DNA of 64,000 nt from Crossaster papposus. Lineage: Eukaryota > Echinodermata > Asteroidea > Velatida > Solasteridae. The notes beneath the pieces were generated by a model. The model was not told the origin of the DNA and did not search any database. It was given only the letters and a program-made list of their open reading frames with translations. Shown here in pieces: positions 19,153 through 58,200 of this stretch; the first letter of the stretch is position 1, and each line of letters starts with the position of its first letter. The stretch spans positions 1,364,001 through 1,428,000 of the forward strand of contig JBAIAA010000237.1 in NCBI GenBank assembly GCA_037893245.1. Reading direction: 5' to 3'. Position numbers and translations under genes: made by a program.

Positions 19153-19200
19153 ATGTTGATCAAGGAGTACAGGATATGCATGCCGATCAGCATCGAAGAG
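19153..19200 (+). CDS. PITPNC1: PITPNC1 coding exon 1
   Basis: ATG plus 15 codons, MLIKEYRICMPISIEE, with donor GTAGGG at 19201. The exon ends at the same codon boundary at which 60869 begins. The matching human start is MLLKEYRICMPLTVDE. Confidence 0.92.
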
Positions 19201-31200: not shown

Positions 31201-34200
31201 TTAAAGCACTTTAGGGAATTTGTATTTCATTGAAGTCTACCAGTAAGGTACATGTAGAAGGCATACATTGTAGTTCATCTAGTCTTGCTTTACCATAGCA
31301 ACCGACGATACCCTATTGTTTTTTCCTGTCGTCATTTGCAAAAATCTAATTATTAAGAAATATCCTATTTATTTGAAAGTAAATATTTAAAACCTTCTAC
31401 CGGTATGCCACAATTCATGTGCTGCATAAAGCGCCGGTCACAACCCACTGTGCGTGTTTTTAGTCCGTATGTTTTTGTGGAGGCCATGTTTTTCGGAAAA
31501 CGTGTGGAGGGAGTGGCAAGAGCAGGGAGGGAGTACGTCAACGCATGTCACCCGCACGGTTGTGCGAGGTGTAAGTACGTGGCCCACACGCCACGCCTGC
31601 CCGTGAGCGGTTGCGTACATCGTTTGTTGCGCAAGTGGTAAGTGAGTTGTAGGTGTTTACAACGTGCTTACAACAGACGATCTCCGTGCGATTGCCACAT
31701 TATTGTACGGAGGCCGTACTTACACGTGCTGCTCACGTACGGTGTCCTTACTCACTCGCATATAGTGCGTGCAAGTGCGCCGTCCGTAGAGCAACTGACT
31801 GTGGGAAAAATTTAAAAGACTCACACAGTCAGTGCGTTGTGCGCTCATTGGCTGTAGCACAAGTAGACAGCACGCACTTGCAAGTACGGCGGGTTGGAAC
31901 CACGGCTTTAGTCGGCACCACACAAATTCAGGAAATAAGAAATTGGTTAGCGATCATCCCGTCTAATATGCATTCATTGTCACTGAGTTAAATCACAGTG
32001 CATATGTACATGTACATGTACATAGATTAAGTCAGAATGCAAGTTGTAAATTGTAAAATTAGCCGGAGTCTGTCACGACCCACCCCACAACTAATGGTTT
32101 TTCATCCTCTGTAGACTTCTTCATCGTACGCCAATCTCCAATTTCACTAATAATGTTAATTACAAACCTCACGAAGGCCGATTGAAAAAAAAAGAAGTTT
32201 CTGTCGTTTGTATTATTTTCCAGGGGTGTACATGTACATGCGTTTGTATTGACCGGCAATCGTGGTCGTCGGACAAAAGAATTGGGAGGCAAACAATGGG
32301 TCCACGATTGACACAACGTCCACGATCTTTTCTCGTGTACAAATCCTATGGCGATCATCCGAAAACGTTAGAGTATAAACAAAAGAGGGAAGACGGTCGG
32401 ACAATACCCCGTCCACGATTGCCGGTCAAAACATAACTGTGTGTGTGTGTCTGTGTACCGGGTGCGAAATACGGTACCCTCTGGAGACTTGAACACAATG
32501 GGGACAATGGGAGGGAAAAGGTCTCCAAAGGGTAATTTCTATAGATGAATAGGTCTCCATTAGGAATTCCACGAATTAGATTTTTGGATTGTACTTAAAT
32601 TACTCAAAAACTAGGGTTAGAATGTGGGTTTGGGTTAGTGTTTGGGTTAGGGTTTGGGTTAGGGAAATTTCAACCCAGGAAAATAATTGTGGTTAAAATG
32701 GGAGCATTTTGAAAAACGTGCTCGACTTTTTAACCATTTTGTACACGAGAACAAAGCCATGTCTCCACAGTGATACAAAAACGCGAATGTGTGTACATAA
32801 ACGTGTACATGTTTTGCCATAAATGTAACTATATAGGATACCCTATTGTGTGTTCTTTTGTTCCTGTAATATAACCTAACCTCATAAACTTAGTGTACAC
32901 TTTAACGCCCGAGGACTGACAAATATTATTCGCCTATTGTGCTTCTGTCCTCCGGGGGTTATGTACCGGTAGTACATGCACAATGAATGAACATGTACTT
33001 AAATGGGACTCAGTGTCGCGACTTTTCATTAAGCTGATCTAATAATAAGGCTCACGACTTTATTGCCATAACTTAATACCAGCATCGTGCCCGATGATGG
33101 ATTGAGTGGGGACGAGAGTTCAAAACAGGCACGAATATTATCCGGCAATAAACATTATTTCATGGGGTTTGTGCTGGAGAATAATTTGTTTTCTTTAAAA
33201 TCTTGTAACAGGTTGCTATTTTAGATATTAACCCTAACTCCCTCACGGTTTTTACTAGAAAGTATCCTGAATCCGCCACAGTCCACCAATTTTGGTTTGC
33301 AAAAACTGCTGGTGTCCTGAGTCCATCAGACTCCACCAGTATGCATTCTGGAGAGATTCTGAGTCCATCATAATCCACCAGCAAAAGTTTGATGGACTGT
33401 GACGGATTCAGGATACCTACAGTAGGTGGCATACAAAAAATTGCAGTGCATTTCTCCATAGAGTCATCACAGTCCATCACCTGAATTTCTGTATCCTGAA
33501 TCCATCAAACTCCTGCAGTAACGCTAGGCTTAAAATCCTCAATCCATCACACTCCTCCAGTTGTTCAATATGGAGGTATCCTGAATCCGCTAAAATCCTC
33601 CAAAACAGGAAAGGGATTTTGATGGACTCAGGGTGGTTAGGGTTAAACAAATAAGAAGACATACATGTACATGTACACGTGTACCAACTGAAGAATTCCG
33701 GCTGATATAAATTTTGAAATTGCTTGAAAATATTGAAAGAACAAAGTGTACGGTATATTACTAGCCAAAGAAAACAAAATACAACTCCCTCATAAAAGTT
33801 TACATCAATTGTTTTTATTGTAATTTCAAAAATGAATGGACTCGGAGATTAGTGTTTCATAGCAAATATTTTTTTCACTCGCCTATTAGGCCTCTTAAAA
33901 TTAATAAAAAGTTTACATCGCCGTCCGTCCCGATTTTTCGCTCCGTCCCGATATTTTTTATATTTTATATTTTTTCTAAAACTGTCTTTTTCTACTTCTG
34001 TGCATGCAATTGATGGTCTAAAATCGTTGATAACAACTGCGCGCGCCATGCAGTGCTTGTAGGAAGACGTACGCGATCGCTTCATCAAAACCCGCCTTCA
34101 GAAAAGTCGCATCACGTGGCTGACGGCATGCAATAGCGTGCTCTGCAAAGATCGTCGGTCAACTGGGCAAGTCGCTGCACGCTGGACATGACAGGTGGCT

Positions 34201-37200
34201 AACGATGTCAGATGTAGGCCCTATTCCTTCCACTATGACTATCATTCCAATGTGTTCAAGCCACACTGTATTGATACTTTAAACAATGAACAGTAATCAA
34301 TCGCTACGTATACAATTCAATTCAATGTATTTTGGCGGGAAAAGCACCTTGCGGTTTCAGTCATTCTCAGGGTCTCAGGGTAGGCCGCTACCATAAAAAA
34401 ACATAAAATCTACTTTGTTCATGAACCAGATTATTTTGTTATGCCAACAGCAAACCTAGGCAAGTCACCGACATGACTGTTTAGGATCGTACATAGGCCT
34501 ACTGTATGTGCCAACCGCTAAATTGTCGCTCAAATGTATCTCATGTTTCTCCCTTCTATGCGCATGCGCGTTTCACCTTGGATAAGAAGGAAAGTAAAAA
34601 ACAAAAAATATAATATAAAATAGAAATTCCCCTCCCCACCAATTTTTTGAAATGTTAGTGATGTAAACCTATTTATTAATTTTAAGAGGCCTTAACAATT
34701 TTGGGTTCATAAATGCTGGAAAAACCTTACAAACCAATAACTGTTCTTTTAGTCTGGTTCCCAGACCCCACTTCAGATGGAACAAAGCAATTTAAGCCAA
34801 TTAATATAATTATTAAACAATTACGCATGAATACAAATCCATTAACATAATTTCTAACAGTAGTTTTTTTTTGTTTTTTTTTCTTTCATCCCGGCAAATA
34901 AATTCCGTTTTTCAATTGTAATGAGACACCTAACTTGAATGAGACACCTACCGAATTTTTTTTACACATGTTTAGGTACTGAATTAATATGTTACAATTC
35001 TTGTGTGCCAGACGATAATTCCGTCCTGCTTCGCAATCAGTATCAATAAACTAAAGAACCACTCGCAACCCTGCCTGTGTGTGTGTCCCGGCTCCCCTTA
35101 TTTTTGTTTCTTTAAATTAAACACTGTCATTTTGCCCCTGAAGAAGATCATGCCAAGACCGTAATATCAGGCCCTCTTAATTTATTTGATTTATTAATCT
35201 TGTGATATGTACATAAGGCTAAACAAAATAAATGGTGTGTTTACGGTATCGGCTTGATAAAACATCCCTGTACTGTATACTGTAGGGACATTTATTTTCA
35301 TTTCATTTCAGAGTTTTAAGTGTAGAAAATGATTATGTTCGTGGCAAATAATCGAAGCTAGTGTTCAGGTCCAATTATTAATTAGCAAAATTTCAATAAC
35401 AAGTTTGAGATCGGCAAATTTGATAAAAATCCTGAGAAGCCGTCACCAACTACTGGAGGGGCATAGCCAATCAATGGAAATTTTTTAAAAAGCATGGTAA
35501 AGATCAACGATAAGATCGTGGTCATCGAGTGTCTCTTCATTTGCTTTATGAAGGTTTTAAAGATTAAACTTTAATACCGGTATGATCAGGGGTGTTAACT
35601 ACATTTGTACCGTTACTTACAATACATCTAGATTAAACTTCTTTGAGGCACCTGGGCTGCACCAATTTTTCAAGGGTGCACTGAAGGCAACTGATTTGTG
35701 TGCAATTTGAGAATTCAAAGGAGGGAGGGCACCCTGTTCCCCCTACCCCCTCCCCATCCTCTACCCTCACCCCGTCCCCCTATCCCCACCCCGTCCCCCT
35801 ATCCCCACCCCGTCCCCTCTAGCCCACCTCGTCCCCCCTCTACCCCCACACTTATCTGTGCCACATGCCCCACTCAACTGTGTCTCCTACCCCCACCCGT
35901 CAGTTCCCCCTTCTCCCACCCATCAGGGACCCCTTCTCCCACCCATCAGTTCCCCCTTCTCCCACCCATCAGGGACCCCTTCTCCCACCCATCAGGGACC
36001 CCTTCTCCCACCCTTTTCCCCGCCCCCCACCCTGTTCCCCACACCCCCACCCCGTTCCCCTACCCAACCCCGTGTTCCCTTATGCTACTACTCCTGACAG
36101 CTTTATACAAGAGGAGGGGATACAGCCTAACACTGACTACATTGTATTTGGCAGCAACCACTCTACAGCCCTGTCTCCTGGACTTGGTGACGTGAGGCTT
36201 CTCACATTCAATCGATGCTGAAATGGAACAAGTTTGTTCAGTTCCTTGCGAAAGTCCCGCATACGCATGCCCTGGCACTTCTTCACGCTGTCGAACGACG
36301 GTACATCCTTCTGAGCCGGTATGCCAAGCCCGCCTGCCATTATGTCTGCACGGAGATACTGGAGAAAGCGATGGGTGCCATTGTAATATTCAATCATCTT
36401 GAACGTAGTTGATATTGGATCACCTATATCAACTGAGACTTTAAGCTTAATCGAGTCACGGGCGTAATCAACCATCATTTTTTGAAGTTGGGGTTCTAGA
36501 AGTTCCCCTGGGAGAGCTTCCGGAACATTTGCGTAGAATCCCATACTCTCCGTGACAAGGCCAGAGTAGCGGTTGCTGGAGTTAAGCAGCGGCTTGAAAG
36601 TCTGCAGGAGTTTAGCAAAGCCAACATAGTCGGCAATGTTCGACGTGAAGATGCGGTCATAGCTGGGCATCTGCAGGGCTTCGTGATGAGGAGGAAAGTT
36701 TAGGCAGTTGGTCAAAGAAACACAAATGAGAAGCCTTCCCTGATGGATGAAACTCAGGAATTTCTGAAGGAGATCGGTGACGTACTTGTGGTACATCACC
36801 ATCCAAGAGGAGCAGGATCCAGGAGTGTGCTCTTCAACTCTTAAGCAGTCCCATACTGTGAAAGGCATTCTTTTTTGGCTCATGAGGTACTTGTAATTTC
36901 TGTATGCACACAGGTCATCTTCGTTTGGAGATCCTGAAGCTTGTAGGCATGGACTACCAAATATTACTTTGTATTTGCTCGCCTCTGCTGCAGTAAGTGT
37001 AGGGTTGTCAAATGGTATGTCTCTTTGATCTGCATCACAGGGCAGGAACAGACCATGTTCAAACCACTTCTCCATCTGATTTTTATCACTTGCACTCAGG
37101 CGATTTAGGTATTCTGAAAAGTTATTCTTCAGACTTTGGTTGCTGTTCTCAAAACAATTCTTTCTTTGTTGTCTGAGATTGATAGAGGTTTGATTGTCTC

Positions 37201-40200
37201 GTTGACATTCCTGCAACTGCCATCCTTTCCAGACATGGCGCAGATGCCCAAGTTCTTTGTCCAGGACACTCGCCAGTCCTTTAGTGGCTTCGTTGAGTTG
37301 CTGGGCGCTCATCTGAAGGAGTTCACCCAAGCTCGTCTTGATCAAGGCGTACTCTCTTTTGGAAATGTGGAGCGAGTACCAGATGGTTGTCAAACTGGAA
37401 GCGATGTGGTCAGTGTCTGCGAATCGAACCAACATGAAGAGAAACAACACGTTTCTTGCCATCACAAATGGATCCTGATCATTAAGAGTAACGTGAAGTT
37501 TTCCCAAGTACTCGGTAGGCAGGGAAGCAGCCGTGAACACTGTGTTGCGGAGGTCTCCACAACCAGCAGATAAGACATGATAGTCCCTGTCCAGCTGTTT
37601 TTTTCCGACACTCGCACCCGACCATTCATTGTTTTCAAGTCGAAGGAAGTCTGTCGCCATTGTGTTCCCAAAGTATTCGGGGAAATCGCCATACGATAGT
37701 ATTTTCAATCTGATGAGATTCGTCGAGAGTTGCTTGATGAATGCCAGAATTTTCCGACATGCCTTTTTGTGTGCTGGGAAGTCGCGCCGTTGACATTCTG
37801 TATTGCAATACCATGCACTGTTGCATGCTGAACACTGCAGAGAGAAACAAAATTAATAATAATAATAATAGGCAATTTTTTAATTATAGCACACTTATCT
37901 ACCAAGAATGGTACTCAAGGCATTTTGTCCTTAATATCCCTGCTCATTGTGCCCACGTAACATTCCAAATACCACGTTAACTTTTGGGGAGTATACAGCT
38001 CAATAAATGCTGCCATCTTGGCACAAAATACATTGTGTAGCCAACAGTCTCCGCCCTCACTGTACCCATTTCACTCCTGAGTGGGGGAACAATGGGTGGG
38101 GAGAAGCAAGGTGACAAAGAGCTTGTCCAAGGGCATACACACCACGGTCCTTAGCGACTTTGACCAATCAAAGGTTGGTGAAGAGAACTGGGCAGTGCCA
38201 TTGGGCAAGGCAGTGGCTAGTAGGGTTGGATTTGTAAGGGGGGGGGGGGGGGGGGGACCCAGGGTGCAAATTGTTAAGGTGGGGCACTTGTTCCAACTTA
38301 TATACTGTTTGTGTGCACTTCAAGATTTCAAATCCCCCTTCCCCTCTGTTTATCGACTGGGGCAGGGTTACCTGACCTGACCCGACCTGACCTGACCTGA
38401 CCTAACCTGTCCAGTCCAGTCCAAGTTTAAGTCAACTTTCTTTAAAGATCTAACTCTAAAACTAAGACTAGTCCACCCTCCCGAGCCTATAGTTTAAACT
38501 TATCTTCAAGGAGATTTTACAATGTACCAGTACATGTACTGTACATTATCAACTACCCTGTAACACCAATGAACAGGCTAAACCTGGCTCACTATGCAGA
38601 CTGAGATGCATGAAAACACTTCCAATAAAGCCATTTTACATCAATTGAGTTTACAAGGAAAAGCCAGTGATAAACAAAATTATATTATGCGCTGTAAGAG
38701 ACCTGCCTTACTACTGGTACAGGTAGCTGTAACCAGTTCTTGTCGGATGCTGTGTATACACGCACAGTTTTTCCGGAGTAGGGCGCTCGCGTCGTGCAGA
38801 TGCAGCTGTGGCGAGTGCATTCTGAATTAGGGACCATGAAATACTGACTTACTTGTATAGTATTGCGCATGCGTATGTGAGGATTGTGAATGTTCAACCA
38901 ATAAAGCGATAAAAGGCACTAAATTTCATAGGAGTCCAAAATTTCAAAGTGTTTAAGATTAGTGTTTAAAACCAGCCAGCCGGACCCAACTGGTGTTTAC
39001 CATCCGATTAATACCAAGCCATGTGACGGGCTCTCGACCAATAGGAATGGGTAAACTGTCTAAGGTATATGAATGTATGTTTAAGGCATACCACCAGTGT
39101 TTTCCCAAGTTTGCCGCAAGCGCTGCACATTTTCTCCTTCGTTGCAAACATTTGGCACTCCACAGCACCATGTCTTATGCTGTCCTTTTCTCGGCACTGC
39201 GCTGAGCAGTACTTGGCCATCGGGCATCGGCTGCAAGGCAGAGTCTGCTTGGGGAGAATCTTCTCACAAAACCAGCAATGTCCAGGCTCCACATCCATGG
39301 TGATGTGTATTGGTAACTGCAAACAAATCTAAAACCCCCCCCCAGAAAATAACAATAATACGGTACCGTATGAACAAAGATCACCATAAACAAGTCAACA
39401 ATTAATAAATTAATTGACATTTTCATATGTTAACAATATCTATTTTGTTTTCTGATATTTCATTTCTTTGCTGGTCAACCGTAACCATAATATAAAAGGA
39501 ACCCATTTTTTTGCCTTGCCTGAACGAATTTTATGAAGAGACTACTGCGTACCGGTACATGTACATGTATGCAATCATTATTTGTGTGTTTTTTATGCAA
39601 AGTTGAAGTCCAATTCCAATGAAACTTGGGTCATGGATGCAATATTGTAACCTTCATATGGCATTTGAGTCAAAGGTCAAGTACTGAGGTCAAAGGTCTT
39701 TTAAGGTCAAGTTGTAAAACGGGCTGGAATTGTAAAAATTGTTTCGTTGAAAACGTGAGGTCCAATTGCAATCAAACTTGGGTCATGCATGCCAAAGTTT
39801 AACTTTTATAGGATGGTCATGTCAAAGGTCAAATACTGAGTTGAAAGGTCAAGTACTGAGGTGAAGAGTCATTTGAGGTTAAAGGTACCGGTACACCGAT
39901 ACACCATTTGCAGATATCGAAAATGTGTACTTCCGAATTATTAAGAAATATCTTACTTATTTGAAGGTAAAAAATGATTGTAGGCATCCGGGCAAAATGA
40001 TTGCGCTAGATATCCTGTAATTGTTCCGAAAAAATGAATTTTATTTAACAAAGTTTACGATCGCCGGACGACAATCGCGAAAAAAACAAGAACAACATAA
40101 AAACCACTGCCCGACGCCGGTTAAAAACGAGCGCCGTTTTTCTTGCTTTCCACGGCATTCATGATTATAAAACTTTGAGCAGGTCAGTTAAACGATATTT

Positions 40201-43200
40201 ACTATAAAATACAATCCCCCAAGTCCACCCATTCCTGATAATTTAGGCAATTACCAATGGATCCAAAGTTGTAAAATAGGATAATCGCAAAAGCAGGCGA
40301 GACACGTGGTTCGAGAACCATCCTTGTTTACGTACCGGTACTTAAGGCAAGTCAATACACCTTATTCACGAGTCGCCAATGTTAAATTAAAAGTGAGGTA
40401 CAGTGTACATGTACATTGTATATAACTCTTTAGTTTTAGAACTTGCGAGTGATTGCATTAAAATACAAGTTCCTTACAAATTAACACCAGTCTTTACTGT
40501 TAAACAATTGTACATACATGTAAACATATACGCCTATTAATATTTTCAACAACATAAAAACAACTTGAAAGCGAGGCTTGGAACACAAAATAGTCTGGCA
40601 CCATCGTATTCAACAGTTTACAATTTATATAATAAATTCAGGGAACATGATCGAAAATGGCGTCCTCGTGAATATTGTCTATTGGGTTTAAATTTTGACT
40701 GCCGCTGCACCCAATGCAGTTTTTATGCTTTTATTGTTTCAAACTGTTAACAAATGATGCAGATTTGTGCACCTGACAATGTTAGTCACGGTCGCACTGC
40801 AAATGATGGATCTTCAGATGTTATTCACTCACCTTTTTGTATGAAAAAAACCTGTATTTTGTTTGTCTTGCTGTGATGGTACTGTATTTCGGTTGCAAAA
40901 TGTACTTCTGGTTCTGATAAATCTCCAGATCCGACTATAATTTGCAGATTGCACATCATTCGCGTTTTGCACAATCATCGTATTGCACAATCTTCTGGGA
41001 AATCACAATGCAAGAACCAACAAAACCTTGTTCTCTGGACCCTGGACCAGCGAGTGGCCACAAAAAGTACATGTACAGCTGTTTGATCCGTCTCTGTATA
41101 GCATACTGGCACACTGCTGCGCACTCTAGCTTTTATGCTCGTACATACGTGTACGTACATGTACGTACATGTACGTACGTGTACGTACATGTACATACAT
41201 GTATGTACGTACATGTACGTACATGTACGTACATGTACGTACATGTATACACTACATGGACGTGTACAATCATTCTCATTTTTTGTATCCTTGTGGAGAC
41301 ATCTCTTTGTTCTTGTTGTACAAAATGGTTAGAAAGTCAACAACTTTTTCAAAATGTTCCTATTTCACCCACAATAAATTTCCTGGATTATACCCTATAC
41401 ACCCTAACCCAAACTAACCCACATCCTAACCCTATTTTTTGAGTACTTTGAGTAAAATCCAAAAATTTATTTCATGAAATTCTTCTACATGTACACAAAT
41501 GAATAGAAATTATCTCATGTATACGCATACAATGTAAAGAGTAGCCACCAATGTCACGTGACAAAAACAGGAGGAATTCTGCTCGTTTCTGAAAATGCCC
41601 TTATAAGTTTTTCCGATTACGTTCTATTGATGGTCTGGTATTATTGTTAACAATTGTAATGTTTGAGTCTTTTCAGGAGTTAAGTGGTCATAAGGTAAAC
41701 AACGTTAACAAAATAGTGCCCATGGATCCAGATTCTTTTTTTCTGGTTTCATACAATCAAAGTTCGCATATTGGCAAAAATTGACACCAGATAAAGTGCC
41801 TTTAACCAGTTCGCGCCGGGATTATTTTAACTTCGCCGAGCCGAGGGGCGGGATTATTTTTAACGAAAATCGATCCGAAGCGGGTTCAGGCTGATAGTGC
41901 CGGGAAGCACACCCACACATTTCCGGCCTTGCTCGCTGCTGACATACATTTCCGAACTTGAACTTGGCGTGTTTATGCGTCATCCGTTTTGAATTTGGGG
42001 AAATTTTTGCGTTTATATACGTCATCCGGCGCGAACTGGTTAAAGGTTTTAGGCAGGATACACCATTTGCAGATCTCGAAGGACTGCATTTATATTGTTT
42101 GCCTAATGTGCTTCTGTCCTCCGGGGTTATGTAGTACATGAACAAGTACTCAAATGAGACTCAGTGTCGCGGCTTTTCATTAAGCTGATCTAATAATAAG
42201 GCTCATGACTTTATTGCCATTTACCGTCATCGTGCCCGATGATGGATGGAGTTGGCGAGCGTTAAAAACAGGCACGAATATTATCTGACAAGGTATTTCA
42301 TGGGGATTTTTGGTGGAGAATATTTTATTTTTTACAAAATGTTGCCATTTCAGGAATTTAACAAATAAGAATACATACACACTAACTGAAGAATTCCCAT
42401 TTATTTAAATTTTGAAATTGCTTGAAAATATTGAAAGAACAAAGTGAGAATTAATATACATTGTAAAATAGCCACACAAAAAATATACAACTCTCAAATA
42501 GTAAAAGTACATGTAGTATACCATTTGTTTTTGTTGTAATTTTAAAAATAGATAGACTAGGGGATTAGTATTTCATAGCAAATTTTGGGGTTCATAGATT
42601 CTGGAAAAACCAGACAAAACAAAACTGTTCTTTTCGTCCGGTTCCCAGACCCCACTTCAGATGGAACAAAGCAATGTAAGCCAATTAATATAATTATTAA
42701 ACTTCCCGGTAGCATCGGCCTGAACCCGCCTCGGATCGAGTATTGTTAAAATAATCACGGCGCGAACTGGTTAAGAAGATCATGCCAAGACCGAAATAAC
42801 AGGCCCTCTTAATTTATTTGATTTATTAATCTTGTGATACAAAAGGTATGTACAGTATAATGCCAAACAAAATAAATGGTAGGTTGTTTTTTTTCCTCAT
42901 TTTTTTCATTATAGAGTTTTTAGTGTGGAAAATGATTATGTTCGTGGCAAATAATTGAAGCTAGTAATCATGTACAATTATTAATGAGCAAAATGACAAT
43001 ACAAAGTTTGAGATTGGCAATTTAGATGCTAAACATCCTGACGAGGCGTGACCAACAGGCCAGAAGAGCATAGCCAATCAAAGGAAAACTTAAAATACAT
43101 GTAGCATGGTAAAGATCAATGATGAGATCGTGGTCATCGAGTGTCCCTTCATTTGCTTTTTGAAGGTTTAAAAGGTTACTTATCTAATTAGGGATTTACT

Positions 43201-46200
43201 ACTTACAATGTACCGGTACATAAACTTCTTGGGGGCACCTGAGCTGCACCAATTTTTCAAGGGTGCACTAAAGGCAACTGATATGTTTGTGTGTAATCCT
43301 CTTCTCCCACCCATCAGTGCTCCCTTCTCCCCCCCCCCCCAAAAAAAAAAAATGTTCCCCCTTCTCCCACCCATCAGTGCCCCCTTCTCCCACCCATCAG
43401 TGCCCCCTTCTCCCACCCATCAGTGCCCCCTTCTCCCACCCAGCAGTGCCCCTTTATACCACCCATCAGTGCTCCCTTCTCCCACCCATCAGTGCCCCCT
43501 TCTCCCACCCAGCAGTTCCCCACACCCTACCTTGTTCCCCACATCCCCATCCTGTTCCCCTACCCCACCCCTGTCCCCTAAAAATGCTACTGCTCCTGAC
43601 AGCTTTATACAACAGGAGGGGACACAGCCTAACACTGACTACATTGTATTTGGCAGCAACCACTCTACAGCCCTGTCTCCTGGATTTGGTGACGTGAGGC
43701 TTCTCACATTCAGTCGATGCTGAAATGGAACAAGTTTGTTCAGTTCCTTGCGAAAGTCCCTCATTCGCATGCCCTGGCACTTCTTCACACTGTCGAACGA
43801 CGGTACATTCTTCTGAGCCGGTATGCCAAGCCCACCTGCCATTATTTCTGCACGGAGATAGTGGAGAAAGAAGAGGGTGTCGTTGCAATAATCGAACAGC
43901 TTGAACAAATTTGGCGTTACATCACCTGTTGTCTGATAGTCACGGGTGTAATAACCAGTCACTATTCGACGTTGGGGTTCTGGAAGGTACGAAGGGCTAG
44001 AGCCCAGAAAATTTTGGTAGAATAACATGATCTCCGTGACAAGGACAGAGGAGCGGTTGCTGGAATTGAGCAGTGGCTTGAAAGTCTGCAGGAGTTTAGC
44101 AAAGCCAACATAGTCGGCAATGTTCGATGTGAAGATGCGGTCATAGCTGGGCATCTGCAGGGCTTGGTGATGTTGAGGAAAGTTTAGGCAGCTGGTCAAA
44201 GAAACACAAATGAGGAGCCTTCCCTGATGGATGAAACTCAGGAATTTCTGAAGGAGATCGGTGACATACTTGTGGTACATCACCATCCAAGAGGAGCGGG
44301 ATCCAGGAGTGTGCTCTTTAACTCTCAAGCAGTCCCATACTCTAAAAGGCATTCTTTTTGGACTCATGAGGTACCGGTACCTGTAATTTCTGTATGCAAA
44401 CATGTCATCTTCGTTTGGAGATCCTGAAGCTTGTACCGGTAGGTGTGGACTACCAAATAATGCCACGTTTTTGCTTGCCTCAGTTGCAGTAAGTGTAGGG
44501 TTGTCAAATGGTATGTCTCGTTGATCTGCATCACGGGGCAGGAACAGACCATGCTCAAACCACTTTTCCATCTGATTTCTATCGCTTGCACTCAGGCACT
44601 TTAGGTATTCTGAACGGTCGTCCTTCATAATTTGGTTACTGTTTTCAAACCAATTCTTCCTTTGTTGTCTGAGATCGATAGAGGTTTGATTGTCTCGTTG
44701 ACATTCCTGCAACTGCCATCCTCTCCAGACATGGCGCAGATGCCCAAGTTCTTCATCCAGTACACTCACCAGTCCTTTGGTGGCATCGTTGAGTTGTCGG
44801 GCGCTCATCTGAAGGAGTTCACCCAAGCTCATCTCGATTAAGTCGTACTCTCTCTTGGAAATGTGGAGTGAGTACCAGATGGTTGTCAAACTGGAAGCGA
44901 TGTCGTCAGTGTCTGCGAATCGGACCGACATGAAGAGAAACAACACGTTCCTTGACATCACAAATGGATCCTGATCATTAAGAGTAACATGAAGTTTCCC
45001 CAGGTACTCGGTAGGCAGGGAAGCAGCCGTGAACACTGTGTTGCGGAGGTCTCCGCAACCAGCAGATAAGACATGATAGTCCCTGTCCAGCTGTTTTTCT
45101 CCGACACTCGCTCCCGACCATTCATTGTTTTCAAGTCGAAGGAAGTCTGTCGCCATGGTGTTCCCAAAGTATTCGGGGAAATCGCCATACGATAGTATTC
45201 TAAATTTGTTGAGATTCACCGAGACTTGCTTGATTACTGCCAGCGTTTCCTGACATGTCTTTTTGTGTGCTGGGAAGTTGCGCCGTTGACAGTCTTTATT
45301 GCAATACCATGCACAACAGCATGCTGAACACTGCAGAGAGAAACAAAATTAATAGTGATAATAATGGGCAATTTTTATATTATATACCAAGAATGGTACT
45401 CAAAGCGTTGTGTCATTATTATCCATGCTCATTGTGCCCACGTAACATTCCAACTACCATTTTAGCTCCCTGGGGAGTATACAGCTCAACGCTGCCATTT
45501 TGGCGCAAAATAGCTAATAACAATAGTCTCTGCCCTCACTGTACCCATTTCACTCCTGGGTGGGGGAAGCAATAAGTGGGAAGAAGCAATAAGTGACAAA
45601 GGGCCTTTTCCAAGGGTGCACACACACCACGGTCCCAGGCCGGACTAGAACCAACCACAATGTGCAGCTTTACCCACAGCTTTACCCACAGACTGCGGAG
45701 TCGATGCTCCAGACAGCTAGGCCACAGCATAGCCATTTATGCTCGTCCCATATTACCAAACATCCTTCCTAAAAACTGACTGACCTACTGACACTCACTT
45801 ACTACAATGACCAATCATAGGTTGGTGAAGAGAAATGGGCAGTGCTATCCTGCAGGGCAGTGGCTAGTAAGGTTTAATTTGTAAGAGAGGGAAAATCCAG
45901 AGTGCACCAATTTTTCAAGGTGGGGCACTGATTCCAACTTATATGTACATGTTCATTATATACTGATAGTGTGCAATTCAAGATTTCAAATGGATGCTGT
46001 GTGTACACACAAACTTGTTCCAGATTTCCAAACAGGCCGGAAATATCTGTCAGCGACTGGCTCACAGTGAGCGAAGCCGGGAAATATCAGGGTGTACTAC
46101 CCACAGATGCCGGCCTGAACCTGTCTAGGATTAAGTTTTCGTGAAAAACAATCCTGGGCCCAGTCAATGTCAAAATTATCCCGGCGCAAACTGGTTAAAT

Positions 46201-49200
46201 TAGCTTGCACGTTCTTTTTAATTGATTTAAAGTGAAGAAAACAAGGTGGTCTTAAAATGGCCCACAGGTTATGAAAGTAAGAAAAATGGTTGGCCGGTTT
46301 TAAACAGTTTGTTTGAAATCTGAATGCTGATAATGACCAAACCCGAAGGCTGGGATCATTATCAGTGCCAGACTCCAAACAGTTTGTTTAATACAGGCCA
46401 ACCACAATTTTATTTCCATTCATGAATACATGTACCTTTTTCGTTCAAATAAATCAAAACTTTTCAATCTAAAAATCAAAACAAGTCAAAAATGTAAACA
46501 ATTTTACTTTATTTTACTCATCTACATGTAGCTACATGTATATAATGGAGTGCCCAGCTCGCGAGTAAGACGTAAACAACTCCTAATAGGAAAATTGGCA
46601 CTTGCGTACTGCACGAGTTTGGCGCATTCTGAATTTATTACCATAATACCGACTTATTGGTATGGGATTGGGCATGCGTACGCGAGTATTGTGAAGGTTT
46701 AACCACTAAAACGGTAAAAGGCACTGAATTTCATACCCGAGTCCAAATTTCATGTAACACTGGAAAAGTGTTTAAAGTGTTTAAGACCAGCCAGACAGCC
46801 CGAACCGGTCTTTATCATTCGTTTATTACTGGCCCTGAGACAGGCTCTCGACCAATAGGAATGGCTAAACCATCTAAGGTATTTATGAATGTACATGTAC
46901 ATGTATGTACCGGTATGTTAAATTAAGGGCATACCGCTAGCGTTTTCCCAAGTTTGCCACAAGCGCTGCACATTTTGTCCTCTGGGGCAAACATTTGGCA
47001 CTCCACAGCACGATGTCTTATGCTGTCCTTTCCTCGGCACTGCACTGAGCAGTACACGGCCATCGGGCATCGGCTGCAAGGCAGAGTCTGCTTGGGGAGA
47101 ATCTTCTCACAGAGCCAGCAATGTCCAGGCTCCACATCCATGGTGATGTGTATTGGTAACTGCGAAAAAAAATACAAAAATACAAAACAAATTAGAACAA
47201 TATATGAACAAAGATTACCATAAACAAGTCAACGATTCATAAAGTAATTGACATTTTCGTATGTTAATATTTTTTTTCTTTTTCTGATATTTCATTTCTT
47301 TGCTGGCCAACCATAACCAAAACACAATATAAAAGGAACCCAATTGTTGTCTTGCCTGAACAAATTTTAGAAAGAGACTACTTCGTACCAATGAATGTAC
47401 ATGTGTTTGTATGCAATCACTATTTGCGTCATTTTAGTTTAAAAGTAAACAAAATTAAAAAATTATATGCAAAGTTGAAGTCTAATTCCAATGAAACTAA
47501 TTGGGTCATGGATGCAATAGTGTAACCTTCATATGACAGTTGTGTCAAAGGTTAGGTACTGAGGTCAAAGGTCATTTGAGGTCAAGTTGTAAAACCGGCT
47601 GGAATTGCAATTGTTTCATTTAAAAACTTGACGTCCAATAGGCCGTATTTTCGAAAATTTACATTTTTCAATATTCCATTTTTAGATAAAAGTAATGTTA
47701 ATAAACTACTTTTTTTAAACGTGGCTTTACCTGTGTTGGGTACCCAGACAATGGCGTCTTACAGCGCCATCATGCGACCTGGGGCCAATTTCACGGAGCT
47801 GCTAAGCACAAAAATTTGCTTAGCATGAAAATTTGTTCTTAGTAAAAACAAGGTTACAGACCAAATTTTCACGTGATCTTTATTGTTTTTGATTGATAAT
47901 CAGCTGTTTTTTTGCTTAGCATGAAAAACACGTAGAATTTTGGCTGATAACTTGCTTTTAATGAGCAAGACTTTTTTGTGCTAAGCAAATTTTTGTGCTT
48001 AGCAGCTCCGTGAAATTGGCCGCAGGAATACGGCGCATTGCAATCAAACTTGGGTCATGCATACAAAAGTGTAATCTTTATATGATGGTCATGTCAAAGG
48101 TCAAGTACTGAGGTGAAAGGTCAAGTACTGAGGTGAAGAGTCATTTGAGGTTAAAGGTACACCGATACACCATTTGCAGATATCGAAAATTTGTACTACC
48201 AAATTATTAAGAAATATCTTATATGAAGGTAAATAATTATTGTAGGCATCCGGCAAAATGTTTCCGCTAGATATCTTGTAATTGTTCCGAAAAATTGTAT
48301 TTAACAAAATTCACGATCGCCGGACGACGATCACGAATAAAACAAGAACAACATAAGAACCACTGCCCGACACCAATTGAAAACGAACGCCGTTTTTCTT
48401 GCTTTCCCTGGCATTCATAATTATAAAACTTCGAACAGGTCAGTTAAACGATATTTACTATAAAATACAAACCCCCAAATCCACCCATTCCTGATATTTG
48501 AAGCAATTACCAATGGATCCAAAGTTGTAAAATAGGATAATCGCAAAAGCAGGCGATACACGTGGTTCGAGAACCATCCTTGTTTACGTACCGGTACATT
48601 AAAGGCAAGTCAATACACTACCGTATGTATATTCACGAGTCGGCAATGTTAAATTAAAAGTGAGGTACGGTACCGGTACATTGTATAACTCCTCAGTTTT
48701 AGAACTTGCGAGTAGAAATGATTGCAATAAAATACAAGTTCCTTACAAATTAACACTAGTCTTTACTGTTGAATAATAAAAAAATTGTACCTAAACATAT
48801 AGGCCTATTATTATTTTCAACAACATAAAAACAACTTGAAAGCGTGGCTTGGAACACAAAGTAGTCTGGCACCATCGCATTCAACAGTTTACAATTTATA
48901 TAATAAATTCAGGGAACATGATCGAAAATGGCTACCTTGTGAATATTGTCTATTGGGTTTAAATTTTGACTGCCGCCGCGCCCAATGCAGTTTTTATGCT
49001 TTTATTGTTTCAAACTGTTAACAAATGATGCAGATTTCGGCACCCGACAATGTTATTCACGGTCCCACTGCAAATGATGGATCTTCATATGTTATTCACT
49101 CACCTTTTTGTATGGTAAAAAAAACCCTGTATTTTGTTTGTCTTGCTTTGATGGTACCGTATTTCGGTTGCAAAATGAACTTCTGGTTCTGATAAATCTC

Positions 49201-52200
49201 CAGATCCGACTAAAATTTGCTGATTGCACATCATTCGCATTTTGCACAATCATCGTATTGCACAATCTTCGTATTGCACATCCAGGGAATTCCCAGGCTC
49301 CAAAGAAACCTGTAAATCACAATGCAAGCACCAACAAAGCCTTGAACAAGACTATTACGTTTGTTCCCTAAACGAGCGAGCGGCCACGAAAAGTACATGT
49401 ACTGCACACTGCAGCGCATGCTAGATTTTATGCACTTGTACATGTATGTACTATGTACAATCATTTGCATTTGTGTATCCTTGTGTAGACATCTCTTTGT
49501 TATTGTGTACTCAGTGGTTAGAAAGTCGACAACTTTTTCAAAATATTCCTATTTCAACCAAAATAAATCTCCTGGATTACATTTTTGACCCGATATAGCC
49601 TATATTACACCCCAACCCAAACACTAACCCTAACCCACATCCTGACCCTAGTTTTTAAGTAAAATTCAAATATCTATAAACTTTCATGAAATTCCTTTAC
49701 ATACTGACATGTATAGAAGTTATCCTATGCAGACTAGTCATTCCCATTGTTCACATGCTCAGGTCTCCACAGGGTATTGTATTTTTCTTTCACAAGTTCT
49801 TTTTCTTGATTGATAGCCTTGAACATTCTGTTTACTTCCAGGTTTTTGTTTTTCTTTACTTTGCTTTGCAAATCCAAAACTCCCTTATAATTTTCATCCC
49901 AAAAGTAAATTATTAAAAAAACAAAAACTTACGTGGATTAAAGATCATATTGGCACTAATAACCACCCTGAGAAATTATTCTGTCTGGCTTGCTGTCATT
50001 TAGAAGAAATGAAAAAAATGTAGGTGATTTACAAGGACCAGTCAATTGGGGAAAAAAAAGGTCTAAATGGTCCTAATAATTATGCTTTAAATTAACCTTA
50101 ACTCCCTAGGGTGTGTGCACAATCATGTTGATTTTAGAGGATTTGGGAGGGTTGGGGTTACTTAGAGTGTTGACATGTACAAGACATCAATAGATTGACT
50201 GTAGTCCTCATAAAATTGATGTGGGTCAGCTGGAGTCATGTCTGGTGTGACTCTGGTGTTACTTTCGGTAAGACATAAGACCACTTTATTAATTTCTAGA
50301 TGATAAGAAATGAAGTGCTTGCAAAGCACACTGAATAAAAATACAGAAGATTTTTTTTATACAAAAATCAGATACATGTACCAATTGAAAACATTGAATG
50401 TATATATACATACAATGTAAATAGTAGCCACCAATGTCACGTGAAAAAAATAGGAGGAATTCTGCCCATTTCTGAAAATGCCCTTAGAAGTTTTTCTGAT
50501 TAGGTTCTATTGATGGTCTGGTATTATTGTTAACAATTGTGATGTTTGAGTGTTTCCAGGAGTTAAGTGGTAGCAAGGTAAACAACGTTAACAAAATAGT
50601 GCCCATCGATCCAGATTTTTTTCTTTCTGGTTTCATACAATCAAAGTTCGCAAATTGGCAAAAATTGACACCAGATAAAATGTTTCTAACCAGTTCGCGC
50701 CGGGATTATTTTAACATCGCCGAGCCGACGGGCGGGATTATTTTTAACGAAACTCGATCCGAAGCGTGTTCAGGCCGATAGTGCTGGGTAGCACACCCAC
50801 GCATTTCCGGCCTTGCGCGCTGCTGACATACATTTCCGAACTTGAACTTGGCGTGTTTATTCGTCATCCGTTTTGAATTTGGGGAAATTTTTGCGTTTAT
50901 ATACGTCATCCGGCGCGAACTGGTTAAAGGTAGGATACAACATTTGCAGATCTCAAAGGACTGTAAAGATATTGTTTGCCTATTGTGCTTCTGTCTTCGG
51001 TGGTTATGTAGTACATGAACATGTACGCAAACTAAACTCAGTGTCGCCGCTTTTCATTATACTGATCTAATAATAAGGCTCACGACTTTATTGCCATAAC
51101 TTAATACCGGCATTGTGCCCGATGATGGATCGAGGTGGCGAGCGTTCAAAACAGGCACGAATATTATCTGACAATGTACCGGTATTTCATTGGGATTGTG
51201 CTGAAGAATATATTTATTTTAAAAAATGTTGCCATTTCAGGAATTTAACAAATAAGAATACATACACACTAACTGAAGAATTCTGGTTTATTAAAATTTT
51301 GAAAATGCTTGGAAATATTGAAAGAACAAAGTGAGACTTGCACTGTAAATTAGCCAAAGAAAAAAACTACAACCTCCCATATAGTAAAAGTACATGTACA
51401 TGTAGTTAGTATACCATTTGCTTTTGTTGTAATTTAAAAAATGGATAGACTAGGGGATTAGTATAGGGGATTTCATAGCAAATATTGTTTCACTCACCTT
51501 TTGGGTTAATAGATGCTGGAAAAACCAGACAAAACAAAACTGTTCTTTTAGTCTGGTTCCCAGACCCCACTTCAGGTAGAACAAAGCAATTTAAGCCAAT
51601 TAATATAATTATTAAACAATTACGCATGAATACAAATCTATTCACATTTCTAACAGTTGTTTTATGTTTTTAATTTTTTCATCCCGGCAAATAAATTCCA
51701 TTTTTAAATTGTGATTTTGCAAAATTTCTAGCAATGGAAAAGTTTTTTACTTTTGAATAAGACACCCATTGAAAAACAATTTGACCCATGTTTAGGTACT
51801 GAATTAATATGTTACAATTCTTGTGTGCCAGACAATAATTCCTTCCTGCTTCGCAATCATTATCGATAATGTTCTAACTAAAGAACCAGTCTACACTAGC
51901 AACCCTGCCTGCTTGTGTGTCCTGGCCTCCCTCATGTTTGTTTCTTGTACCCCTGTCATTTTGCCTCTTAACCAGTTTGCGCTAGAGGACGTATACACGC
52001 AAAGTTTTCCCCAGATTCAAAACAGATGACGCATAAACACTGTCTGTCAGAAAAAAGCAAGGCCGGAAATGTGTGGGTGTGCTTCCCGGTACCATCGGCC
52101 TGAACCCGCCTCGGATCGTGTTTCGTTAAAAATAATCCCGCGCCTCTGCTCGGTGATGTTAAAATAATCCCGGCACGAACTGGTTAAGAAGATCATACCA

Positions 52201-55200
52201 AGACTGAAATATCAGGCCCTCCTAATTTTTTTGATTTATTAATCTTGTGATATGTACAGTATAAGGCCGAACAAAATAAATTGGAATGTTTTTGTTTTTT
52301 TCATTTGTTTCATTTTATAATTTTTAGTGTGGAAAATGATTATGTTCTTGGCAAATAATTGAAGCTAGTTATCATGTACAAGTATTAATTAGAAAAATGA
52401 CAATACAAATTTGAGGTCGGCAATTTAGATGCTAAAAATTCTGACGAGGCGTGACCAACAGGCCAGAGGGGCATAGCCAATCAAAGAAAAATTTAAAATA
52501 CATGTAGCATGGTAAAGATCAACTAGAAATATGTCTGTTCTATGAACAGAGCATATGGCTTTTTCGCATTTTTTGTTAATTGTTCATTACATTTATGATT
52601 TTCATTGTATACAAAATAGAAATTAAAAAAGAAAGTAATTGATCATACCTCTCGCGGTTGATTTTCAGGCACTTCCGGTTTAGACCGGAAGGAAGGGTCA
52701 AATTATTTTGCATGGTATACGAAATATGAAGACCATGGATTATTCTATCAATTACTGTAAAAATCAAAATCGGATCTCTTACAGTTGATTTTATATTGAT
52801 TTTTGAAGATTAAATCCAGTAATCATTGGTTTCTTGTAATTTGATACTGGATAAATACCAGTTATAAAGCGATTTGAGCAAACTTTGCCACACACATCAA
52901 CTGATTATTCATTTTAAACATTTGTCAACCTGCCACTAGAGGGCGCTATAACAATTTATGACGTCACCGGTAACTTCTGTGTGAGTGCAGCCTAGCCAGA
53001 GACTATCATCGTTGAAAGTAAGTTTATATCATTTTGAACTTTCAAATTATAAGGCACTTCCGGTTTGGACCGGAAGAAAGGGTCAAGTCATTTTGCATGT
53101 AATACGAAATATAAAGACCCTGGATTATTCTATCAATTCCCGTTAAAATCTAAATCAGGTCGGTTACAGTTGATTTTATATTGATTTTTAAAGATTAAAT
53201 CTAGAAATCATTAGTTGCTTGTAATCTGATACTTGATGACGTCATCGTGACGTCATTAACATAAAGTTCGAGAGCTGTCTGAACTTGTCTATTTAAAGCA
53301 AAAAAAAAGAATTATATCTATCGCGGTTGATTTTTCAGCAATTATTTAAGGTTTAAAGGTCTTTTCATTGTAACTTCCGGTCTAGTGACGTCATATTTTT
53401 TTCTCTCCGCCAACTTGTTCCTAACATGATGCCGATTATATACACCAGATATAAAGTGATTTGGGCAAACTTCGCCACACACATCAACTGATTATTCATT
53501 TTTAACAGTTTTCAACCTGCCGCTAGAGGGCGCTGTAACATGTTATGACGTCACCGGTAATTTTTTGAAAAGCACTATTAACCAGAGACTAACACTGTTG
53601 AAAGTAAGTTCGCATCATTTTCCACTTTCAAATTATAAGGCACTTCCGGTTTCGACCGGAAGGAAGGGTCACGTGATTTTACGCACACGAAATAAATTGA
53701 AGATCTTTCATTATTCTATCAATTCCCCTAAACTTCAAGTTCCGGTCTTTCGGGGTTGATTTTTTATTGATTTTCAAATATTAAATTATTACAACTTTAA
53801 GATGGCGTCACATGTCACGTGATGACGTCATCATGACATCCGAGTTTTAGGCACTAGCTCAGTGTGAGTTCTGACTCTGTGCAAAGTTTCATTGACATTG
53901 AAGTCTGTTTAATGACAAAAGTGACCTCCAGAATGAAACGTGTACAAAGTCTATGCGATGTAAGGCCGAATAACAAGAAGAAGAAGAAGCATTAAAACAA
54001 ACAGAAGAAACACAAAGGCTTTTTCGCTGAAAGCGAAAAAGCCAATAATGAGTGTCCCTTCATTTCCTTTAGAAGGTTTAAAAGGTTAGATTTATCTAAT
54101 TAGGGCTTTACTACTTACAATGTACCGGTACATAAACTTCTTGGGGGCACTTGAGCTGCACCAATTTTTCAAGGGTGCACTATTAAGGCAACTGATATGT
54201 TTGTGTGTAATCCTCTTCTTCCACCCATCAGTGCTCCCTTCTCCCACCCATCAGTGCCCCCTTCTCCCACCCAGCAGTTCCCCACACCCCACCTTGTTCC
54301 CCACATCCCCATCCTGTTCCCCTACCCCACCCCCTGTCCCCTAAAAATGCTACTGCTCCTGACAGATTTAGACAAGAGGATGGGATACAGCCTAACACTG
54401 ACTACATTGTATTTGGCAGCAACCACTCTACAGCCCTGTCTCCTGGATTTGGTGACGTGAGGCTTCTCACATTTAGTCGATGCTGAAATGGAACAAGTTT
54501 GTTCAGTTCCTTGCAAAAGTCTCGCATTCGCATGCCCTGGCACTTCTTCACACTTTCGAACGACGGTACATTCTTCTGAGCCGGTATGCCAAGCCCACCT
54601 GCCATTATGTCTGCACGGAGATACTGAAGAAATTGATGGGTGCTGTTAAAATATTCAAACATCTTGGACCCATTTGGCGTTACGTCACCTGTTGTCTGAA
54701 AGTCACGGGTGTAATTTTGAATCACTTTTCGACGTTGGGGTTCTGGAAGTTGCAAAGGGTTAGCGTACGAAAAATTTGCGTAGAATACCATACTCTCCGT
54801 GACAAGGACAGAGTAGCGATTGCTGGAGTTGAGCAGTGGCTTGAAAGTTTGCAGGAGTTTAGCAAAGCCAACATAGTCGGCAATGTTCGATGTGAAGATG
54901 CGGTCATAGCTGGGCTTCTGCAGGGCTTGGTGATGTTGAGGAAAGTTTAGGCAGCTGGTCAAAGAAACACAAATGAGGAGCCTTCCCTGATGGATGAAAC
55001 TCAGGAATTTCTGAAGGAGATCGGTGACATACTTGTGGTACATCACCATCCAAGAGGAGCAGGATCCAGGAGTATGCTCTTTAACTCTCAAGCAGTCCCA
55101 TACAGTGTAAGGCATTCTTTTTGGACTCAGGAGGTATTGGTACCCGTAATTTCGGGATGCAAACATGTCATTTTCGTTTGGAGATCCTGAAGCTTGTACT

Positions 55201-58200
55201 GGTAGGTACATGCACATAATACCAAATAATGCCACGTTTTTGCTTGCCTCAGTTGCAGTAAGTGTGGGGTTGTCGAATGGTATGTCTCGTTGATCTGCAT
55301 CACAGGGCAGGAACAGACCATGCTCAAACCACTTTTCCATCTGATTTCTATCACTTGCACTCTGGCGCTTTAGGTATTCTGAACGGTCAAACTTCATACT
55401 TTGGTCGCTGTTTTCAAACAAATTCTTCCTTTGTTGTCTGAGATCGATAGAGGTTTTATTGTCTCGTTGACATTCCTGCAACTGCCATCCTCTCCAGACA
55501 AGGCACAGATACCCAAGTTCTTTGTCCAGGACGCTCACCATTCCTGCTGTGGCATCATTGAGTTGTCGGGCGCTCATCCGAAGGAGTTCACCCAAGCTCG
55601 TCTCGATCAAGCCGTACTCTCTCTTGGGAATGTGGAGTGAGTACCAGATGGTTGTCAAACTGGAAGCGATGTTGTCAGTATCTGCGAAGCGAACCGACAT
55701 GAAGAGAAACAATACGTTCCTTGCCATCATAAATGGATCCTGATCATTAAGAGTCACGTGAAGTTTTCCTAAGTACTCGGTAGGCAGGGAGGCAGCCGTG
55801 AACACTGTGTTGCGGAGGTCTCCGCAACCAGCAGATAAGACATGATAGTCCCTGTCCAGCTGATTATCTCCGACACTCGCTCCCAACCATTCATTATTTT
55901 TAAGTCGAAGGAAGTCTGTCGCCATAGTGTTCCCAAAGTATTCGGGGTAACCGCAATACGCTAGTATGTTCAATCTGTTGAGATTCTGCGAGAGTTGCTT
56001 GATGAATGCCACAATTTCCTGACATGCCTTTTTGTGTGCTGGGAGGTCGCGCCGTTGACAGTCTGTATTGCAATACCATGCACTGTTGCACGCTGAACAC
56101 TGCAGAGAGAAACAAAAAATATGTGTATATTATAGCACCCGTATCTACCAAGAATAGTACATGTACTCGAGACGTTGGCTGGGGTCATTATCAGCGTCTA
56201 GACTCCAAATTGGTATTAAACAGTATAAGTATGTTTAATACCGGCCAACCACACTTTTATTCCCATTCATGAATACCTTTTCGATTTAAAAGTCAAAACA
56301 AGTCAAAGATTAAAACTTTGCAACAATTTTGTTTCACAATTTTACTTCATGTTTTTTAAAACACCTCTCTAGCTATATAATGGAGTGTCTAGCTCACGAG
56401 TAAGACATAAACAACTTATAATAAGGAGATTGGTGCGTGTCGCGCGTACTGCACGAGTTAGGCGCTTGCGCCGCGCGTATTGCACGATGTCATGCAGATG
56501 CAGATGCAGCTGTGGCGAGTGCATTCTGAATTTAGGACCATCAAATACCAACTTACATGTACTGCCAGCGTCAAAATTTCATGTAACACTGAAAAAAAAT
56601 GTTTAAGATACATACATGTAAGTGATTAAGACCAGCCAGCCGACCCGAACTGGTCTTTAGCATTCGTTTAATACCGGCCCATTGACCGGCTCTCGACCAA
56701 TAGGAATGGGTAAACTGTATTTATGAATGTATGTTACCATTACCCTACCGGCAGCGTTTTCCCAAGTTTGCCGCAAGCGCTGCACATTTTCTCCTCCGAG
56801 GCAAACATTTGGCACTCCACAGCACCATGTCTTATGCTGTCCTTTTCTCGGCACTGCGCTGAGCAGTACATGGCCATCGGGCATCGGCTGCAAGGCAGAG
56901 TCTGCTTGGGGAGAATCTTCTCACAGAGCCAGCAATGTCCAGGCTCCACATCCATGATGTGTATTGGTCACTGCAAAAAAATAATAATATGAACAATATA
57001 TGAACACAAAAATAACCATGAACAAGTTAAAGGTAGGATACACCATTGGTAATTGTTTGAGTTATCATGAATGTGTGGATTTGGGGGTTGTATTTTATAG
57101 TAAATATAGTTTAAATGTAGGATACACCATTTGCTAATTATTAAGAAATATCTTACTCATTTGAAAGTAAATAATGATTCTAGGCAATCAACAAAAGGAT
57201 TGCGCTAGATATCCTGTAAATATTCAAAAAAATTGAATTTTATTAAAATTTTATTAAATTTGCGATAAACAAAGATAACATAAGAATAACGGCTCGACCC
57301 CGGTTAAAAACAAACGCTGTTTTTCATGCTTTTCTCGGCATCCATGATTGTAAAACTTCGGAAAAGTCAGTTAAACGATATTTACTATGAAATACAACCC
57401 GCCAAATCTACCCATTCATGATAATTCAAGCAATTACCAATGGTGTATACTACATGTACCTTTAACTGACTTGTCCGAAGTTTTACAATCATGGATTCTG
57501 AGAAAAGCAAGAAAAACGGCGTCCGTCTGGCATTAGTGAATTATTTTTTTCAATTCAATTTTTTTGAACAATTACTCAATATCTAGCATAATCATTTTGC
57601 TAGTTGGCTAGAATCATTATCTAGTTTCAAATAAGTAAGATATTTCTTAATAATTCGGTAGTAAATTTGTTAGATATCTGCAAATGGTGAATCCTACTTT
57701 TAACAACTCATAAAGTAATTGGCATTTTCATATGTTAACAATATTTATTTTGTTTTCTGATATTACATTCTTTGCTGCCAACCGTAACCATAACACAAAG
57801 GAACCAATTTTGTTGTCTTTCCTGAACAAATTGTAGGAAGAAACTACTGCGTACCAGTGTGTGTCATTTGTAATATCGTAGTTAAAGTTTAAAAAAAGTG
57901 TTATTTGCAAAGTTAAAGTCCAATTCCAATGAAACTTGGGTCATGGATGCAGTAGTGTAACCTTTATATCGGGGTGCACTACACCAAGTACGCACCTGTA
58001 GAAAACAACCCAAAATCTGACAGAAACAGCGCCACCTAGTGACGTTTAGGGGTCGGATGGCAATGTATTTTTCACTGGAAATTAAAGATGAAGACTCCTA
58101 GGGCAATTTTCTTCTCAATTTTACTTTTTTTTATTTTTATATTCCCCTTCCCTATAAAAAAACTAAAATGGTTGTCAATATCCGGGCCAAGGTCTAAATG

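Follow-up and report, generated by a model that had tools for sequence, protein, structure and literature searches.

The 64-kb window analysed here (64,000 nucleotides of the sea star Crossaster papposus, contig JBAIAA010000237.1, hereafter C237, positions 1,364,001 to 1,428,000; unprefixed positions below are those of the window) carries three tandem genes on the minus strand whose predicted proteins combine two MYND zinc fingers with a DUF4470 domain. Judged from their sequences, these are shown to be three separate, predicted intact protein-coding genes that arose by local tandem duplication in an intron of a PITPNC1-type gene. Comparison of the three copies shows, with the caveats given below, that purifying selection acts on most of the protein and that the rate of evolution in a segment at about codons 500-570 is neutral or higher. 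The reading that we tentatively prefer is that they would be docking proteins with zinc fingers, a core like that of DNAAF3 and a contact patch that evolves fast. The route of origin, tandem duplication and a nested location, is ordinary, and what is notable is the fast segment in an otherwise constrained protein.

Each of these minus-strand genes has two coding exons. In copy 1, coding exon 1 (39092..39298) encodes MYND finger 1 and the first ligand pair of finger 2, and coding exon 2 (36137..37834) encodes the rest of finger 2, DUF4470, the C-terminal region and the stop. Coding exon 1 of copies 2 and 3 is at 46935..47141 and 56749..56955, respectively, and coding exon 2, matched by Pfam in both, is at 43639..45330 and 54402..56099. 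The introns of copies 1, 2 and 3 are 1257, 1604 and 649 bp long, are in phase 0 with a GT donor and a CAG acceptor, and in each gene fall within finger 2, after its first ligand pair and before its second. The predicted proteins are 634, 632 and 634 amino acids long and have no internal stops. All three score above the Pfam cut-offs, with DUF4470 (PF14737) at E 1.2e-21 to 1.9e-20 and 73-77 bits against a cut-off of 25, and zf-MYND (PF01753) in two stretches per protein at 43-61 bits per protein against 22.7. When the Pfam scan was taken to E 1, zf-MYND and DUF4470 were the only domains in the three proteins, and neither a SET domain nor an immune domain was found; an NCBIfam search with one of the proteins and an Rfam search of the window gave no match. 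The preliminary description of this DNA, made from the letters alone, had proposed three open two-exon MYND-DUF4470 genes of the same architecture with intact zinc ligands, and the splice sites, frames and matches to the Pfam MYND and DUF4470 models agree with it, as does the invariance of all 16 ligand positions in the family alignment described below.

Between copies 1 and 2, 1 and 3, and 2 and 3, synonymous divergence (dS) was 0.158, 0.165 and 0.131, nonsynonymous divergence (dN) was 0.090, 0.088 and 0.075, and the Jukes-Cantor distance in noncoding DNA was 0.129, 0.175 and 0.143 (4754, 3510 and 3724 positions), the last being taken from alignable, roughly collinear sequence only and possibly an underestimate. 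Since dS is close to the noncoding distance, synonymous sites look near neutral. Over the whole gene, pairwise dN/dS by the Nei-Gojobori method (NG86) was 0.53-0.57; in alignment codons 501-600 alone it was 1.05-1.28. In codon models, fitted with code of our own that was checked by null simulation alone, the whole-gene dN/dS (omega) was 0.75 (p 0.052 against 1; 628 codons), and it was 0.66 (p 0.0075; 579 codons) when the alignment was masked by removing eight codons on each side of gaps. When codons 500-570 were fitted separately omega was 2.53 (p 0.011), and 2.19 when masked, whereas outside these codons it was 0.56 (p 0.0004), and 0.52 (p 0.0001) when masked. Model M2a was favoured over M1a with twice the log-likelihood difference (2dl) at 39.3 unmasked and 24.8 masked, and in 209 simulations under M1a the value of 24.75 was never reached, the maximum being 9.82. 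The purifying selection that had been proposed for the genes is thus upheld outside codons 500-570 (omega 0.52-0.56) but not inside them (2.2-2.5), with M2a beating M1a; likewise, the comparison of synonymous with nonsynonymous rates put forward at that time gives dN below dS for the whole gene but omega above 1 in the segment. We regard the signal of diversifying selection in the three copies as suggestive. A 6-codon indel lies within the segment, and gene conversion, if uneven, could produce some of the same pattern.

The three genes belong to a larger family. Genome-wide searches covered the 1.02-Gb assembly, and both locus counts obtained are lower bounds. The DUF4470 search gave 25 matches, all over the cut-off, consisting of 23 family exons and two exons of DNAAF3 on contig C650, and the protein search found the same 23 loci together with two fragments on C412. 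The family therefore has at least 23 loci with the architecture of two MYND fingers and DUF4470, spread over seven contigs: three in the window, another three (the distal copies) some 0.5 Mb from these on C237, nine on C412, two each on C306, C31 and C893, and one each on C154 and C483. The count of 23 may include alleles, as the pairs on C306 and C31 are 93-96% identical and could be alleles. The preliminary description saw mainly a nested expansion, and this is not what was found, as 20 of the 23 loci lie outside the PITPNC1 intron. Exon 2 is open and of full length in 22 of the 23 loci and frameshifted in the C154 copy, and both exons are open in 20 of the 23; in the C412 copy at 1073219 exon 1 is apparently frameshifted, and for the C306 copy at 666833 exon 1 was not found in the 4.3 kb fetched upstream. 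In all 20 copies outside the window an AG precedes the same cysteine, with which exon 2 starts in phase 0. The 16 zinc ligands, eight per finger at positions that we assigned presuming the usual MYND pattern, are invariant in the alignment (exon 1 being present in 21 of 23 rows), and downstream of the two fingers and DUF4470 the C-terminal region is conserved across the family. In 18 of 21 copies an acceptor-like AG, weaker in some, was seen by eye no more than about 25 bases before the ATG, and therefore an untranslated first exon is likely. In the family tree (LG+G4) the window copies are monophyletic with support of 100 and their neighbours are the C483 (82) and C154 (100) copies, while the distal C237 copies are remote from them, at 45-49% identity. 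In the C483 copy exon 2 has a 24-column insert that, by eye, seems to derive from a simple repeat, and in the four C306 and C31 copies (L020, L021, L024 and L025; the C483 copy is L019) a tandem repeat fills the intron sequence preceding exon 2.

DNAAF3, also called PF22, is an axonemal dynein assembly factor with DUF4470 as its N-terminal domain. The DNAAF3 of this genome on C650, which we joined by hand from part of its exons, has DUF4470 at 75 bits and also DUF4471. It resembles the family in having DUF4470 with a GxGD loop, but differs in carrying DUF4471, in having several exons and in being a single locus. The window copies have the loop VLSAGCGDLRN, comparable to that of DNAAF3, with invariant acidic residues in the next stretch, and C92, G93, D119 and D121 (exon-2 numbering) are invariant in all 22 copies compared; we tentatively take the loop to be motif I of class I methyltransferases and the acidic stretch to hold the acidic residue after strand 2. 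According to a 2025 review, which cites Sakato-Antoku et al. 2024, DNAAF3 has been recognised as structurally orthologous to S-adenosylmethionine (SAM)-dependent arginine methyltransferases (PMC12633730). By way of the shared Pfam domain, DUF4470 of the family may likewise have a methyltransferase-like fold. MYND fingers are docking modules for short peptide motifs. A possible scheme for our preferred reading is that the fingers would attach to a partner through its short peptide motifs, that the DUF4470 part would fold as a DNAAF3-like Rossmann domain with the VLSAGCGDLRN loop followed by the conserved acidic stretch, and that this core would bind SAM or a similar cofactor, or would by now be a pseudo-enzyme. 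A partner that itself changes would be touched by the variable C-terminal patch, and partner specificity would thereby have diverged among the tandem copies. A bolder version, in which this is a sea-star family of methyltransferase-like zinc-finger proteins that duplicates in tandem and displays, on a conserved core, a short recognition patch under positive selection, we consider distinctly unlikely.

A number of results weigh against the docking-protein reading. Codons 500-570 were chosen post hoc, from the data, and masking weakens their omega test to p 0.057. When the 36 of 579 codons having two or more differences in any pair were left out, the M2a signal was gone and omega was 0.51. Of three further clusters tested, M2a was favoured in one, the distal C237 copies (omega 0.63, 2dl 19.9; masked 0.66 and 21.0), and this counts for the reading; it was not significant in six C412 copies, masked or unmasked (omega 0.53), or in the four C306 and C31 copies, for which exon 2 was used unmasked only (omega 0.44). 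In codons 490-560 of these clusters' own alignments, which we took as the corresponding segment, omega was 1.07 in the distal copies and 0.86 in the C412 six, and in the distal copies the M2a signal was 12.3 outside these codons against 9.1 inside. Because the distal signal lies mostly outside the segment, our confidence in the reading is slightly lower. As to the core, G91, the first G of the presumed motif I, is E in two distal copies, L010 and L011 (SAECGD, not SAGCGD), and any cofactor binding by these two may be unusual. AlphaFold2 models from window-only alignments (A2, 565 amino acids; A3, 213 amino acids) had a predicted local distance difference test score (pLDDT) of 30 and 39 and were unusable. 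DUF4471 (PF14740) was not reported in 22 family members at E up to 5, a search limited in that HMMER filters discard most matches above about 0.1. When the family profile was run against the whole hand-joined DNAAF3, 124 of 1539 hit-giving shuffles scored as high or higher, and hhalign of the family with DNAAF3 aligned 34 columns only, at a probability of 2.3. Homology to DNAAF3 beyond DUF4470, which looked collinear by eye, was thus unsupported by hhalign and by HMMER with shuffled controls; for the part of DNAAF3 after DUF4470, 1513 of 1666 hit-giving shuffles scored as high or higher against the family profile.

Some of the same results would be expected if these are ordinary tandem duplicates whose core is constrained, whose C-terminal loop is dispensable and under little constraint, and which have no recognition role, an explanation that is somewhat doubtful but quite possible. 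Omega above 1 would then come from multi-nucleotide mutations, misalignment at indel edges and uneven gene conversion, and this fits the disappearance of the M2a signal without multi-nucleotide codons, the indel inside the segment and the matching segment of two of the other clusters, where omega is not significantly above 1. However, codons with multiple differences are not in excess over the M1a simulations (36 observed against a mean of 29.5 and a maximum of 52), and the segment alone, with its own branch lengths, still has omega 2.2-2.5 (p 0.011, masked 0.057). That the copies are decaying pseudogenes still open through recency is very improbable. In the family, two fragments, a frameshift in exon 2 of one copy, an apparent frameshift in exon 1 of another and a further copy for which no exon 1 was found speak for decay, as does the unmasked whole-gene omega of 0.75 with p 0.052 for the window copies; but at 13-18% neutral divergence all three window copies retain frame, splice sites and zinc ligands, and omega of 0.52-0.56 outside the segment rejects neutrality.

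Many immune families of echinoderms diversify by tandem duplication, and the genes may be innate-immune or anti-pathogen intracellular factors diversifying in this way. A clustered multigene family in which positive-selection sites are favoured in two of the four clusters tested is consistent with this, but no immune domain is among the Pfam matches of the three proteins, and two scans, of viral contigs and of prokaryote genomes, gave no relative that was confirmed by tblastn; we regard such a role as unlikely. Less likely again is that the genes are diversified DNAAF3 paralogues acting as dynein pre-assembly factors, perhaps specific to a dynein type or to sperm cilia. DUF4470 is common to the family and DNAAF3, but DUF4471 is not reported in the family and similarity outside DUF4470 is not significant. 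Over the whole genome, DUF4471 matches above the cut-off fall on C650 only (5 of 6 matches), where DNAAF3 proper exists separately. Basidiomycete fungi of the kind that enters here are not known to have cilia. What also speaks against such paralogues is that a DUF4470 gene group is entered as gained (+2) in one such basidiomycete (PMC6396904), although another assembly factor, DNAAF7/ZMYND10, does carry a MYND finger according to the review (PMC12633730).

Proteins with MYND and DUF4470 (PF01753 and PF14737) are the nearest known likeness, as both domains are above the Pfam cut-off in the window copies, whereas the two fingers, the many copies and the fast segment look less usual. This pairing occurs elsewhere in animals and in fungi. 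Our literature search did not find a paper on the function of MYND-DUF4470 proteins; DUF4470 was named in two of the papers covered and PF14737 in one. The earlier statement that the combination has no established function thus stands for the combination itself but not for DUF4470, which is common to DNAAF3, reported as arginine-methyltransferase-like. Sequence searches of the PDB gave MYND fingers and, for the finger region too, a weak PHD-finger match (E 1.6). Among them SMYD2, of the SMYD lysine methyltransferases, matched finger 2 at E 7.5e-5; SMYD proteins differ in their SET domain, which was not found in the window copies, and the similarity is limited to the finger and a few following residues. 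ZMYND10 (DNAAF7) matched weakly in its MYND finger (E 0.1 and 0.011). We know of no DUF4470 in ZMYND10. It also differs in that its finger is C-terminal, as given in the review (PMC12633730).

The exon-1 copies of the three genes lie 7843 and 9814 bp apart, and blastn between units together with repeats delimits three duplicated units of about 8-9 kb each at 34697..42500, 42514..51383 and 51407..60228, with approximate ends; the cut points were chosen by us and the matches among units are only roughly collinear. These agree with the tandem units of about 9 kb in the preliminary description, and so do the flanking plus-strand exons with its placing of the array antisense inside a 41.7-kb PITPNC1 intron. 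Coding exon 1 of the host (MLIKEYRICMPISIEE) is at 19153..19200 on the plus strand with its donor at 19201, and exon 2, at 60869..61017, encodes IP_trans (67 bits, C237:1424866-1425039) and has its putative 3' end from the GT at 61018. The plus-strand host intron with the whole array is thus 19201..60868, or 41,668 bp, and every coding exon of the three genes lies inside it on the opposite strand. The host is presumably PITPNC1 rather than PITPNA, as judged by its N-terminus. Nested genes are common, and the intron would be incidental, the place where one copy landed and then multiplied. Alleles, haplotigs or assembly error are unlikely for the three genes because they are consecutive on one contig and differ by 8-10% in DNA, with synonymous divergence matching noncoding divergence. 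No further close copy was found in the DUF4470 and protein searches of the genome.

Elsewhere in the window, a 120-bp unit is repeated 8.0 times with 97% matches at 8559-9517 on the plus strand. The unit holds the 3' half of an exon of a WD40 gene, which we take to be CFAP52-like, together with its GTAAGA donor, and its length is a multiple of three, yet the open frame is interrupted near 8870 and 9230; the repeats are possible tandem decoy 5' splice sites. A long array of 12/13-bp tandem repeats at 1430-2270 is open in several frames on both strands. The mitochondrial contig of the assembly (16,330 bp) can be read sensibly with the echinoderm code, and in it ND2, ND1 and the tRNA cluster are inverted with respect to COX1, an order known from sea stars. 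On contig C8, which is longer than 5 Mb, COX1 matches at 5208663-5210009 and 2872001-2873343 lie within long, bacterial-looking open frames, and C8 is perhaps a bacterial contig, of a symbiont or a contaminant, in the assembly.

The location in the PITPNC1 intron contributes little to what the finding means. DUF4470 is nearly without functional literature in the search made, and this family, in which both coding exons are open in 20 copies, the core is constrained and a fast stretch has been mapped, makes a concrete starting point for seeking what the domain binds. If the segment is truly under diversifying selection, it would point to a conflict or recognition role so far unknown, and otherwise this would be an ordinary tandem family. 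Should even the bolder version, with a methyltransferase-like core presenting a positively selected patch, be true, the family would represent an animal system for intracellular recognition or antagonism that uses a DNAAF3-type scaffold.

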